Assembly: GCA_037138755.1 (NCBI GenBank)
Contig: JBAXHT010000002.1
Location: forward strand, 248,001 to 312,000
DNA from: Armatimonadota bacterium
GTDB taxonomy: Bacteria; Armatimonadota; Fimbriimonadia; Fimbriimonadales; Fimbriimonadaceae
Length of the DNA: 64,000 bases
Direction: 5' to 3'
Translations under genes and position numbers: made by a program
The notes under the pieces: generated by a model
The model's input: the letters and a program-made list of their open reading frames with translations, nothing else
Told to the model about the DNA's origin: nothing
Database searches by the model: none
Shown here: positions 1,057 through 12,011 of the stretch, piece after piece
Position numbering within the stretch: the first letter of the stretch is position 1
Layout of the letters: every line of letters begins with the position of its first letter

Positions 1057-1845
1057 TTACTTCTCCAAATAAGGCAAGAGCTCGGACAGATGGCTGACAA
1101 TCAGATCCGGCAGAGGCCCTTCGGTCGGAATCGGCTCGGGCTTTCCAGTCTTTGAGCTCGGCGGAACATCAGACTCGCGATAGGTCCAAGCCGTCGCCCA
1201 GCCGAACTGAATCGCGGGAATGATGTCGTGATGCAACGAGTTGCCGACCATCAAAAGCTCGTCCGGAGTGCATCCCATTGCCGCGGCTGCTCGGTCAAAA
1301 ACAATCTTCTCGGGCTTCCCGACCCGTTGCTCGCCCTCGATGAAGATCGCCTGCAGATACTTCCGGATGCCCGTCGTGTCGATCTCCTGATTCTGAATAT
1401 CGGCAGGGCCGTTGGTCATCAGCCCGATCTTATATGATTTAGACAGCCGTTCTAGAACGTCAATGGCGTCAGGAAAGAGCTTCAGATTCGCATCGCGGCG
1501 CTCCATATAGGCTTGACTCAAACGGGCCGCAAGTTCGTCATCTTCGATATCAAGTGCAGCCAACGTCAGCTGCATCTGGTGAGTACGCGTTCGCTCACCA
1601 GATGTCAAATAAGCTTCGTACAGCTCGTCGATGCCCTTCAGTTGCCCGCTAAATGCCTGGAAAACTGCGCTCCAAGCATCGATCGCATGGTCGGTAGTCA
1701 CGCCAGGAATCGGAACTTGGTCAAATGCCTCGCGAAGGCCGATTTTGCACGCGTCCCAGTAGCCGCAGAGGGTGTCGTCTAGGTCGAAGTAGATGGCTTT
1801 GACCTTGGACAGGCGTTCTTTTGCGGCGGCATTCACTCCCTTCAT
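1057..1845 (-). CDS. HAD-superfamily hydrolase
   Basis: A 262-residue protein. Motif I is FDLDDTL (nucleophile Asp21, acid Asp23). A helical cap follows, then motif II (LMTNG), the motif III Lys in GKPEK, and motif IV in VGNSLHHD, where Asn replaces the usual Asp of GD. The layout resembles subfamily I phosphatases of the YjjG/NANP type, cytosolic enzymes acting on small phosphorylated metabolites. The substrate cannot be told. It lies 27 nt after ygfZ and directly abuts the PAP2 gene, so all three are probably co-transcribed. Confidence 0.88.
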   Translation of the reverse strand: MKGVNAAAKERLSKVKAIYFDLDDTLCGYWDACKIGLREAFDQVPIPGVTTDHAIDAWSAVFQAFSGQLKGIDELYEAYLTSGERTRTHQMQLTLAALDIEDDELAARLSQAYMERRDANLKLFPDAIDVLERLSKSYKIGLMTNGPADIQNQEIDTTGIRKYLQAIFIEGEQRVGKPEKIVFDRAAAAMGCTPDELLMVGNSLHHDIIPAIQFGWATAWTYRESDVPPSSKTGKPEPIPTEGPLPDLIVSHLSELLPYLEK

Positions 1846-8341: not shown

Positions 8342-8452
8342 GGCTCAGAGTTTATCTTTGGAATACCACGGGTATCCGTGCATGAGAGAGTTCCTTTCAA
8401 AATTGATTGAAATTTGGTAACTTTCGGGCTCTTCACGCCATAATAGTAAGTA

Positions 8453-8509
8453 GCCGAGGGGCGTTGCAGTCACTTTCGAGTGGCGAGGCTCGGCGAATAA
8501 ACGGCGCTC
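8453..8509 (+). promoter_or_regulatory. SAH riboswitch (S-adenosylhomocysteine aptamer)
   Basis: The sequence fits the SAH aptamer consensus. P1 is GCCGAG (8453-8458) with CTCGGC (8489-8494). A CACT-TTCG-AGTG hairpin lies at 8471-8482. The pseudoknot pairs GGGCGT (8459-8464) with GCGCTC (8504-8509) by four Watson-Crick and two G-U pairs. The conserved words GCGTTGC and AACGGCGCTC are present. SAH riboswitches are ON switches for genes recycling SAH, and ahcY follows directly. The 3' pseudoknot strand is also part of the terminator stem. Confidence 0.93.
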
Positions 8510-8538
8510 ATGATCGAAAGTTGGTCATGGGCTTTTTT
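8506..8538 (+). terminator. Riboswitch-controlled intrinsic terminator before ahcY
   Basis: A 10-bp stem (8506-8515 with 8523-8532, two G-U pairs) with a 7-nt loop is followed by six T residues (8533-8538). Its first four bases (8506-8509) are also the end of the aptamer pseudoknot strand. The ligand-bound aptamer and the terminator therefore cannot form together. Confidence 0.88.
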
Positions 8539-8573
8539 GTTTCCAGACCGACTAACAAAGGAAAGGATAACAA

Positions 8574-9989
8574 ATGAACACAGCCCCTGCTGACCTCAAA
8601 ATTGACTTCCACGTTGCCGATCTGGGCCTTGCTGCGTTTGGCCGCAAGGAGATCGCGATTGCCGAGACCGAAATGCCTGGCCTGATGGAGATCCGAAAGG
8701 AGTACGCCGGATCGAAGCCGCTCAAGGGCGCAAAGATCGCCGGATCGCTTCACATGACCATTCAGACCGCGGTCCTCATCGAGACCCTGGTTGACCTCGG
8801 TGCTGAAGTGCGCTGGGCAAGCTGCAACATCTTCAGCACCCAAGACCATGCCGCCGCCGCCATCGCCGCCGCGAGCATCCCCGTTTTTGCCTACAAAGGC
8901 GAAACTCTTGAAGAGTACTGGCAGTACACCCACCGAATCATGGAGTGGGCTGACGGCTCGACTCCGAACATGATTCTGGACGATGGCGGCGACGCGACGA
9001 TGCTCGTTCTCATTGGAGCAGAAGCCGAGAAGGACCTCTCTGTGCTTGACAACCCAGGCTCGGAAGAAGAAGTGATTTTCTACGCTTCGATTCGCGAGAA
9101 GCTCAAGACCGATCCAACCTTCTACTCCCGCATCAAAGCCGAAATCAAGGGCGTTAGCGAAGAGACGACGACAGGTGTAAAGCGGCTTTACAAGCTTCAC
9201 GAAGAGGGCAAGTTGCCGTTCGCTTGCTTCAACGTCAACGACTCAGTCACCAAATCTAAGTTCGACAATCTTTACGGCTGCCGAGAGTCGCTGGTCGACG
9301 GAATCAAGCGCGCAACCGACGTGATGATCGCCGGAAAGGTTGCGGTCGTCTGTGGCTACGGCGACGTTGGCAAGGGTTCAGCCCAGGCTCTGCGAGCCCT
9401 GAGCGCCCAGGTCTGGGTGACCGAGTGCGATCCGATCTGCGCTCTTCAGGCAGCAATGGAAGGCTACCGAGTCGTGACCATGGAGTACGCCGCCGACAAG
9501 GCCGACATCTTTGTTTCCGCAACCGGAAACAAGGACATCATCCGCCACGAGCACATGATCAAGATGAAGGATCAGGCGATCGTTTGTAACATTGGCCACT
9601 TTGACAACGAGATCGATGTCGCGGGATTGAAGCAGTACACCTGGGAGAACATCAAGCCGCAGGTCGACCACATCATCTTCCCTGATGGCAAGCGGATCAT
9701 CCTCTTGGCCGAAGGTCGGTTGATCAACCTCGGTTGCGGAACCGGACACCCGTCCTACGTCATGTCCTCGTCGTTCGCCAACCAGGTTCTGGCGCAAATC
9801 GAACTCTTCGTCGAGTTCGGAAAGTATAAGCCCGGCGTGTATGTGCTGCCGAAGCACCTCGACGAAAAGGTTGCTCGCTTGCAGCTCGCCAAGCTTGGAG
9901 CCCAGCTCACCGAGCTGACCCCGTCGCAGGCATCGTACATCGGCGTGACCCCAGAAGGTCCGTTCAAGTCAGACTCCTATCGGTATTGA
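8574..9989 (+). CDS. ahcY: Adenosylhomocysteinase (SAH hydrolase)
   Basis: A 471-residue cytosolic NAD-dependent enzyme. It reversibly splits S-adenosylhomocysteine to adenosine and homocysteine, removing the inhibitor left by methyltransferases. It has the usual N-terminal substrate domain ([15 protein letters not shown]), the NAD-binding loop [13 protein letters not shown] near residue 260, and the C-terminal KSDSYRY tail that closes the neighbouring active site. It has the longer bacterial form with an insertion around 140-180. The start is fixed by AAAGGAAAGGA at 8557-8567. Expression should rise with SAH through the upstream riboswitch. Confidence 0.98.
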
Positions 9990-10007
9990 GCTAGGTACCC
10001 TTTAGGG

Positions 10008-11324
10008 GTGCCAGACTCCCGATTTCGCCTCTCCGCTGATTCTGCAAATGACTTGGCGGAGAAATTCGGGACACCACTTTATGTTTTGGATGAAGCCGGG
10101 TTGCGCGAGCGGGTCGCCCGCTATCGGCATGCGCTTGCCGCTCTATATCCTCGCTTTGAAGTGAGTTTTGCCAGCAAAGCGAACTCAACTCTTTCGCTCT
10201 TAAAGATCGCACATGACGCTGGTGCGACCATTGACGTCGCCAGCCGAGGAGAGCTCGAAGCCGCGCTCCGAGCTGGAGTACCGGCAGGCCATTGTCACTT
10301 GCACGGGAACAACAAGAGCATTTCTGAGCTCACCTTTGCTCTTGAACAAGGCGTGAGCCACATCATGATCGATCATCTTGGCGAGATCGATATGCTTGCG
10401 TCACTCTCGAAAAGAGAGACGAAGTTCGTCCTTCGAGCTGCGCCGGGCGTTGATCCGAAGACGAACGCGAAGATCTCCACCGGCCAGGCCGATACCAAGT
10501 TCGGTTTCAATCTCGCCAACGGCTCCGCCGAGGAAGCTCTGCTGTACGCTCAGGCGAAAGGGATTGAGATCGTCGGAATTCACTGCCACGTTGGCTCCCA
10601 GCTTATGGACGGTGAAGCTCAGGAAAACGCGGGTGAGTTACTCGGCAACTGGCTTGTTCAAATGCGTAAGAAGCACGGGTTTGAGCTGGACTATCTCAAC
10701 GTGGGTGGCGGTTTAGGAGTTAAGTATCTGGACTGCGACGAGCCGGAGACGATTGAACAATATGTCTCACGAGTCATGTCTCGGCTCCTCCCAATTCTTG
10801 AAGCAGCAGGCATCGAGCCTTTGATCGGCATGGAGCCGGGACGGAGCCTGATCGCCGAGTGTGGATTGACGCTTTACCGGGTAGGAGTTGTGAAGACGGT
10901 TGGTGAGAAAACCTATGTCGCTGTGGATGGCGGCCTGGCCGACAACCCGCGACCCGTCATGTACGGAGCGCGGTATCAAGTTGAACTTCTGCGAGACTCG
11001 AAATGGGAGTACCAGACCGACGGTCCGGGAGCAATGGCTTTCACGAGGGAAGTTGGTGAGGGAGCCGTCGTCACCATCTCTGGAAGGCATTGCGAGACGG
11101 ACACACTGTTCCCAAATGTTGAACTAGCCCGAATGCCAAAGGAAGGCGACCTCATCCAAGTCCTTACAACCGGAGCGTACAACAGCAGCATGGCGAGCAA
11201 TTACAACCGCTATCAACGCCCCGCAACGGTGTTAAAGAGAACCAACGGTGAATTTGCACTGATTCAGCGGCCTGAAACGTATGATGAAATGTTCGCCCGC
11301 GAGATCATTCCGGAGGGACTCTAA
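10008..11324 (+). CDS. lysA: Diaminopimelate decarboxylase
   Basis: A 438-residue PLP enzyme converting meso-diaminopimelate to lysine, the last step of lysine synthesis. It has the alanine-racemase-like barrel with PLP-binding Lys57 in SFASKANS, the phosphate-binding GGGLGVKY, EPGRSLIAECG, and the C-terminal GAYNSSMASNYN typical of LysA. The GTG start at 10008 is preceded by TTTAGGG, a close ribosome site. It follows ahcY by 18 nt and precedes the M50 gene by 3 nt, so it may be read through from the riboswitch transcript. Confidence 0.96.
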   Translation: MPDSRFRLSADSANDLAEKFGTPLYVLDEAGLRERVARYRHALAALYPRFEVSFASKANSTLSLLKIAHDAGATIDVASRGELEAALRAGVPAGHCHLHGNNKSISELTFALEQGVSHIMIDHLGEIDMLASLSKRETKFVLRAAPGVDPKTNAKISTGQADTKFGFNLANGSAEEALLYAQAKGIEIVGIHCHVGSQLMDGEAQENAGELLGNWLVQMRKKHGFELDYLNVGGGLGVKYLDCDEPETIEQYVSRVMSRLLPILEAAGIEPLIGMEPGRSLIAECGLTLYRVGVVKTVGEKTYVAVDGGLADNPRPVMYGARYQVELLRDSKWEYQTDGPGAMAFTREVGEGAVVTISGRHCETDTLFPNVELARMPKEGDLIQVLTTGAYNSSMASNYNRYQRPATVLKRTNGEFALIQRPETYDEMFAREIIPEGL

Positions 11325-11327
11325 GTC

Positions 11328-12011
11328 ATGCAGGATTTTGATTTCGTCGGAGCATTCCTCAGGTTGCTAGTCTTCATTCCCGCGGTCGGACTTCACGAGT
11401 ACTGTCACGCAAAGTTTGCCGACATGGCGGGCGACATGACACCCCGCTCTCAGGGCCGCGTGACCCTTAACCCGCTGGCGCATCTTGATCCAATCGGCAC
11501 GATTATGATGGTGCTGTCGTCGGCCTCCGGTGTCGGAATCGGCTGGGGGAAGCCGGTCATGGTCAACATCGGTCAGATGCGAAATCCTCGTTTTGACCAC
11601 TTTGTGAGCGTCATTATGGGGCCGATTTCTAACCTAGGACAGGCGATCTTTTACGCCATCATTCTCCGGACCGGCCTCGTTGCTTTCAGCCTAAACAGCA
11701 TCTACGAGCCGGTTGCATTCCTGCAAGGCGGCGGCTCGTTCCTCACCTTCTGGGTTAGTTCTTCGCTCATTTACAACCTCGGAATGTTCTTCTTCAACAT
11801 GATCCCGCTTGGCCCACTGGACGGCCACTGGATCGTCGGAGCCATGATGCTTCCACCACAGCGTAACGCATGGTACAAGTTCTGCCATGGGCCAGGAATG
11901 TACATTTTCTTGGCTCTGGTTTTACTGCCTCGGGGAATCGGTTTCAACCCCATCGGCTGGTACATGCAGCACACCCTCTTCCCTACTCTGAAGTTTCTTT
12001 TGGGACTCTAG
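11328..12011 (+). CDS. Site-2 protease family (M50) membrane protein
   Basis: A 227-residue integral membrane metalloprotease. The first helix holds the zinc motif HEYCH (about residues 24-28) and a later helix the MIPLGPLDGH motif that supplies the Asp ligand. This matches the short, PDZ-less S2P group that cleaves substrates within the membrane or is inactive in some lineages; both catalytic motifs are intact here. It starts 3 nt after lysA in the same transcript. The link to lysine synthesis is probably only positional. Confidence 0.9.
   Translation: MQDFDFVGAFLRLLVFIPAVGLHEYCHAKFADMAGDMTPRSQGRVTLNPLAHLDPIGTIMMVLSSASGVGIGWGKPVMVNIGQMRNPRFDHFVSVIMGPISNLGQAIFYAIILRTGLVAFSLNSIYEPVAFLQGGGSFLTFWVSSSLIYNLGMFFFNMIPLGPLDGHWIVGAMMLPPQRNAWYKFCHGPGMYIFLALVLLPRGIGFNPIGWYMQHTLFPTLKFLLGL

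Follow-up and report, generated by a model that had tools for sequence, protein, structure and literature searches.

The leader of ahcY in the 64-kb (64,000-nt) stretch of Armatimonadota DNA analysed here (the window, to whose forward strand all coordinates below refer) contains an apparent SAH aptamer running into a hairpin followed by a run of T. The locus therefore raises the question of whether these two elements form a single switch, in which direction such a switch would work, and which of the neighbouring genes it would control. We consider it highly probable (about 0.92) that a cis-acting SAH-sensing riboswitch controls ahcY by transcription termination. The argument is based on the identity of the aptamer, mutually exclusive base pairing, conservation and covariation among homologues, and predicted energies; we infer that the window RNA binds SAH, where transcription starts, and the direction and magnitude of the effect.

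The aptamer in the ahcY leader

The cmscan search matched RF01057, the Rfam family of SAH riboswitches, to positions 8452–8516 (+) with a score of 49.6 bits (gathering score 37), covering the full length of the model (1–78), with an E-value of 3.8e-6 for the whole 64-kb window. This is the sole copy found in a search of the 3.27-Mb genome. The first-pass annotation, made by reading the sequence, had called an SAH riboswitch at this position, and the covariance match bears it out. According to the Rfam structure line, P1 is formed by 8453–8457 and 8490–8494, and P2 is a hairpin at 8470–8483 (8470–8474 paired with 8479–8483, loop TTCG). The pseudoknot, assigned from the sequence and for its 3' strand also from relatives, joins GGGCGT (8459–8464) to GCGCTC (8504–8509); this six-pair core can be extended to 8466/8502, which brings the 3' strand to 8502–8509. 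All 26 pairs named in P1, P2, the pseudoknot core and the terminator stem described below are standard. A nearest-neighbour estimate that omits tertiary and ligand terms gives about -7.3 kcal/mol for the core duplex.

Comparison with relatives indicates that the conserved bases of the aptamer core are kept in the window. Position 8485 departs from C, the commonest base, and several relatives in both sampled sets have a G there. In a tentative alignment with the crystallised sequence, G8466, C8467, A8486 and C8502 appear to be the counterparts of G15, C16, A29 and C46. The latter four are the reported SAH contacts (PMC7057144). Every sequence feature tested places the window RNA in the SAH riboswitch class.

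The aptamer lies in the 5' leader of an SAH-recycling gene, the start of ahcY being 57 nt beyond it, and the usual target of the class is the SAH hydrolase gene (PMC4239095). Upstream, a -10-like element, CATAAT (8439–8444, +), precedes the aptamer by about 8 nt; a transcript initiated from it would start at or near P1. A generic sigma-70 scan called no full promoter at the window leader, only this -10-like element. The element is kept in relatives: in 56 of the 69 homologous leaders, a hexamer matching TATAAT at five or more of its six positions is present, mostly 15–20 nt before the GAGG of P1.

A terminator built on the pseudoknot strand

The hairpin at 8506–8532 (+; 8506–8515 paired with 8523–8532, loop 8516–8522), identified by scanning, folding and pair checking and supported by the covariation described below, has a 10-bp stem of eight Watson-Crick and two U-G pairs, and is followed directly by T6 (8533–8538, +). 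Judged by its sequence, with a GC-containing stem and a T-run directly after it, this element is an intrinsic terminator. The first four bases of its 5' arm, GCTC (8506–8509), are exactly the last four of the pseudoknot 3' strand; both the 10-bp stem starting at 8506 with its six T and the four-base overlap with 8504–8509 had been proposed at first reading, and they are exact in the sequence. When the region was scanned loosely for terminators, four sites were returned against 3.6 expected from shuffled sequence, and we dropped this generic scan as proof: at a rate so close to chance a hairpin with a T-run is unremarkable by itself, and homologues are needed to decide.

Energies were calculated for fixed structures, because plain minimum-energy folding cannot represent the pseudoknot and mispairs the aptamer. 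By nearest-neighbour estimates that omit tertiary and ligand terms, the complete terminator has -14.4 kcal/mol, and the stem that remains when the four shared bases are withheld has -4.8 kcal/mol, with four unpaired bases between this remnant and the T-run. Across 65 relatives, withholding GCGCTC from the terminator has a median cost of 13.2 kcal/mol.

Since the pseudoknot and the terminator are mutually exclusive, binding of SAH is expected to keep the terminator from forming and so to switch ahcY on. In the mechanism that we propose, the transcript would begin at or near P1, and when SAH is lacking the nascent 3' pseudoknot strand (8504–8509) would remain free; its last four bases would then become the base of the terminator stem (8506–8532), and RNA polymerase would stop in T6. 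With SAH bound, the pseudoknot would be held and the four shared bases would be unavailable, so that only a short upper stem, set apart from the T-run, could form and the polymerase would read into ahcY, whose product would in turn remove SAH. The predicted sign is thus ON, as had been suggested at first reading and as published for the class, members of which reportedly respond to SAH with increased expression of ahcY (PMC7057144). Other members bind SAH with an affinity of about 20–32 nM (PMC7057144, PMC11188199), and by analogy a similar affinity in the window RNA would be enough to tip the balance between pseudoknot and terminator.

Conservation of the shared strand in Armatimonadota

We searched 291 Armatimonadota genomes for RF01057 and found matches in 69 (64 above the gathering score), all of whose leaders were extracted and read; they come from about 30 genera and are related by descent, hence they do not represent 69 independent cases. 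A single terminator detector, applied to all sets, looked for hairpins that begin in the GCGCTC strand of the pseudoknot and lead into a T-run. It found such terminators in 64 of the 69 leaders from Armatimonadota and in 5 of 113 from Proteobacteria and Acidobacteriota among the matches listed; after the downstream bases had been shuffled, 3 of 690 leaders had one. The comparison with the shuffled controls argues against chance as the source, in these leaders, of a stem based in the pseudoknot strand together with a T-run. Moreover, stem positions beyond the shared bases pair with their own arm in 96.6% of cases and with the arms of other genomes in 64.4%, and none of 2000 arm-exchange permutations, carried out with 58 distinct leaders, reached the former value. 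The stem thus varies in sequence while pairing with its own arm is kept, and this covariation directly supports the terminator. Comparative sequence evidence therefore indicates that competition between aptamer and terminator for the same bases is conserved among the Armatimonadota homologues. The mechanism of shared bases, put forward earlier as a personal reading of this one leader, gains considerably from these results, its effect on termination being a prediction.

These data also bear on two other explanations of the leader. According to one of them, the hairpin acts constitutively, as terminator or attenuator, the aptamer is a degenerate relic, and ahcY is under no SAH control. The pseudoknot core of the window does have one G-U and one U-G among its six pairs, and 49.6 bits is only in the middle of the range observed among relatives (32.8 to 62). 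However, the RF01057 match is well above the gathering score, the conserved aptamer bases are retained, and aptamer and terminator have stayed coupled in dozens of divergent leaders, which makes a relic very improbable.

The other explanation is a translational SAH switch, in which the pseudoknot strand, once freed, would pair with the ribosome-binding site and the T-run would be fortuitous. Precedent for it exists in many proteobacterial leaders, which place the strand in hairpins without a T-run or beside the Shine-Dalgarno sequence, and pairing of the freed strand with the ribosome-binding site appears likely in many Proteobacteria; one Armatimonadota leader also looks translational. In the window, on the other hand, the ribosome-binding site of ahcY (AAAGGA, 8562–8567, +) is located outside the hairpins, 23 nt beyond the T-run, and the T-run directly follows the stem in the 64 Armatimonadota leaders mentioned above. 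We accordingly give translational control of the window gene very little credence, and retain transcription termination as the mode of action. The Armatimonadota exception (L060, G098:C123) belongs to the window's own genus and has no terminator; its pseudoknot strand could pair over the ahcY ribosome-binding site, and to judge from the sequence a shift from transcriptional to translational control is possible in this leader.

Genes downstream of the switch

The presumed direct target, ahcY (8574–9989, +), encodes an adenosylhomocysteinase of 471 aa, of the long form (TIGR00936, 609 bits, cut-off 497.6; PF05221), and in a close relative (L116) the AhcY protein is 98.7% identical. It is followed after 18 nt by lysA (10008–11324, +), encoding diaminopimelate decarboxylase (TIGR01048, 370 bits, cut-off 297.9), and, a further 3 nt on, by a gene for a membrane protein resembling the M50 (site-2 protease) family (11328–12011, +; PF02163, 26.9 bits, just below the cut-off of 27.2). 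Both spacings agree with those given in the first-pass annotation, which had added that SAH may also raise transcription of the lysine pathway.

This suggestion proved weak, as lysA directly adjoins ahcY in the window genome only. In its strongest form it would make lysA and the M50-like gene part of a regulon maintained by selection, with SAH control extending through both and coupling the state of the methyl cycle to the supply of lysine and peptidoglycan precursors, in addition to the termination switch rather than in place of it. The tight same-strand junctions (18 and 3 nt) and the lack of a clear terminator between ahcY and lysA are compatible with such a regulon. Yet of the relatives for which downstream sequence was available (just under 60), only the two nearest to the window genome (L209 and L210) have lysA and the M50-like gene near ahcY; in both of these an opposite-strand gene, absent from the window at 9989–10008, intervenes between ahcY and lysA, and in L209 ahcY is followed by a clear hairpin whose tail is rich in T. 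The link is recent and may be neutral, and we regard a selected regulon as unlikely. A conserved ahcY-lysA operon is ruled out, the adjacency not being kept in relatives. From the sequences compared, in which direct adjacency is peculiar to the window genome, the 18-nt junction most likely reflects a lineage-specific deletion. It is plausible that transcription continues from ahcY into lysA, with lysA a probable passenger in the window's lineage only.

Linkage to one type of AhcY

The family to which the window belongs (f1) is represented by 85 genomes, with the riboswitch in 57, a short AhcY in 21, and no AhcY shown in seven. All 56 riboswitch genomes in which the enzyme could be typed have the long form of about 470 residues (in the remaining one, G087, the gene is cut off by the contig end), and none of the 21 genomes with short AhcY has the riboswitch. 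A second family (f10) follows the same pattern, with 11 long AhcYs accompanied by the riboswitch and one short AhcY without it. To the extent that we checked, this strict link of the riboswitch to one AhcY type is new. The genomes with short AhcY and no riboswitch (G079, G081, G082, G089, G100, G116–G120, G134, G135, G139–G141, G147–G149, G152, G155 and G156) are scattered among close relatives, and three of them (G081, G082 and G089) are from the window's own genus.

About 27 genomes from other Armatimonadota families encode a different long AhcY, 61–68% identical to that of the window, without the riboswitch. A permissive Rfam search detected no degenerate riboswitch upstream of this other long-form ahcY (20 loci) or at the short-form gene (5 loci). 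One of the matches to RF01057 (G070, family f2) is on a 3.7-kb contig of a bin that is 73% complete, and could be contamination.

A tree built from 93 AhcY sequences places the Armatimonadota proteins linked to the riboswitch among those of Proteobacteria and Acidobacteriota that likewise accompany it, with a branch support of 99, and apart from the other long forms of Armatimonadota, and a single clade of all Armatimonadota long AhcYs is rejected (p = 8.6e-8). The corresponding test does not reject a single clade comprising the two families with the riboswitch (p = 0.31), hence two separate transfers are not shown. The grouping with Proteobacteria suggests that switch and gene were transferred together. 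Since the proteobacterial AhcYs were chosen by the presence of the riboswitch, from the matches listed, and the tree includes few switch-free relatives, the direction of transfer is an inference. With this in mind, we lean slightly towards a scenario in which Armatimonadota acquired ahcY together with its riboswitch from a proteobacterial pool, once or separately in the two families, the incoming gene standing in for the short AhcY of other members of the same family, and the platform being rebuilt to termination through the pseudoknot strand in almost every copy.

Comparison with known systems

The class was reportedly described by Wang et al. in 2008 (Mol Cell), and its crystal structure by Edwards et al. 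in 2010 (RNA). The window shares with RF01057 the sequence and fold of the aptamer, the usual target ahcY and, as a prediction, the ON logic; what distinguishes the window and the other Armatimonadota leaders is the terminator platform, which is rare in the Proteobacteria and Acidobacteriota among the matches listed. Betaproteobacterial leaders such as L105, L115 and L123 likewise use GCGCTC as the base of a terminator stem; unlike the window, L115 (27–204) and L123 (4191–4394) have tandem SAH aptamers before ahcY, the second directly after the first, and it is the first that has the shared-strand terminator. We do not claim that the arrangement itself is undescribed; its near-universal use in the riboswitch leaders of Armatimonadota is new, as far as we have checked.

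The SAM/SAH riboswitch (RF01727) also senses SAH by means of a pseudoknot, but its fold differs from that of the window RNA; it is found upstream of metK in Rhodobacterales (PMC2864571) and is of the translational occlusion type (PMC10907184). According to a 2014 survey, metK is not controlled by SAH riboswitches (PMC4239095). A contig of a Thiothrix MAG (L158) carries SAH riboswitches at 2619–2708 and 1282–1389 (minus strand), one of them directly upstream of a MetK-like gene, and in two gammaproteobacterial MAGs (L094 and L103) an SAH riboswitch precedes a gene similar to metH (methionine synthase).

Surveys place the SAH riboswitch class mainly in beta- and gammaproteobacteria (PMC3766115, PMC4239095), and also in Mycobacteriaceae (PMC3766115); the literature that we searched contained no paper in which riboswitches are connected with Armatimonadota or Fimbriimonas. 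The present findings extend the class to this lineage. They also reveal a natural experiment, in which one aptamer with a nearly identical pseudoknot strand is combined with a terminator in most leaders of one phylum and with other platforms in most leaders of another. Finally, the strict pairing of the riboswitch with one AhcY subtype makes the joint transfer of a regulator and its enzyme testable.
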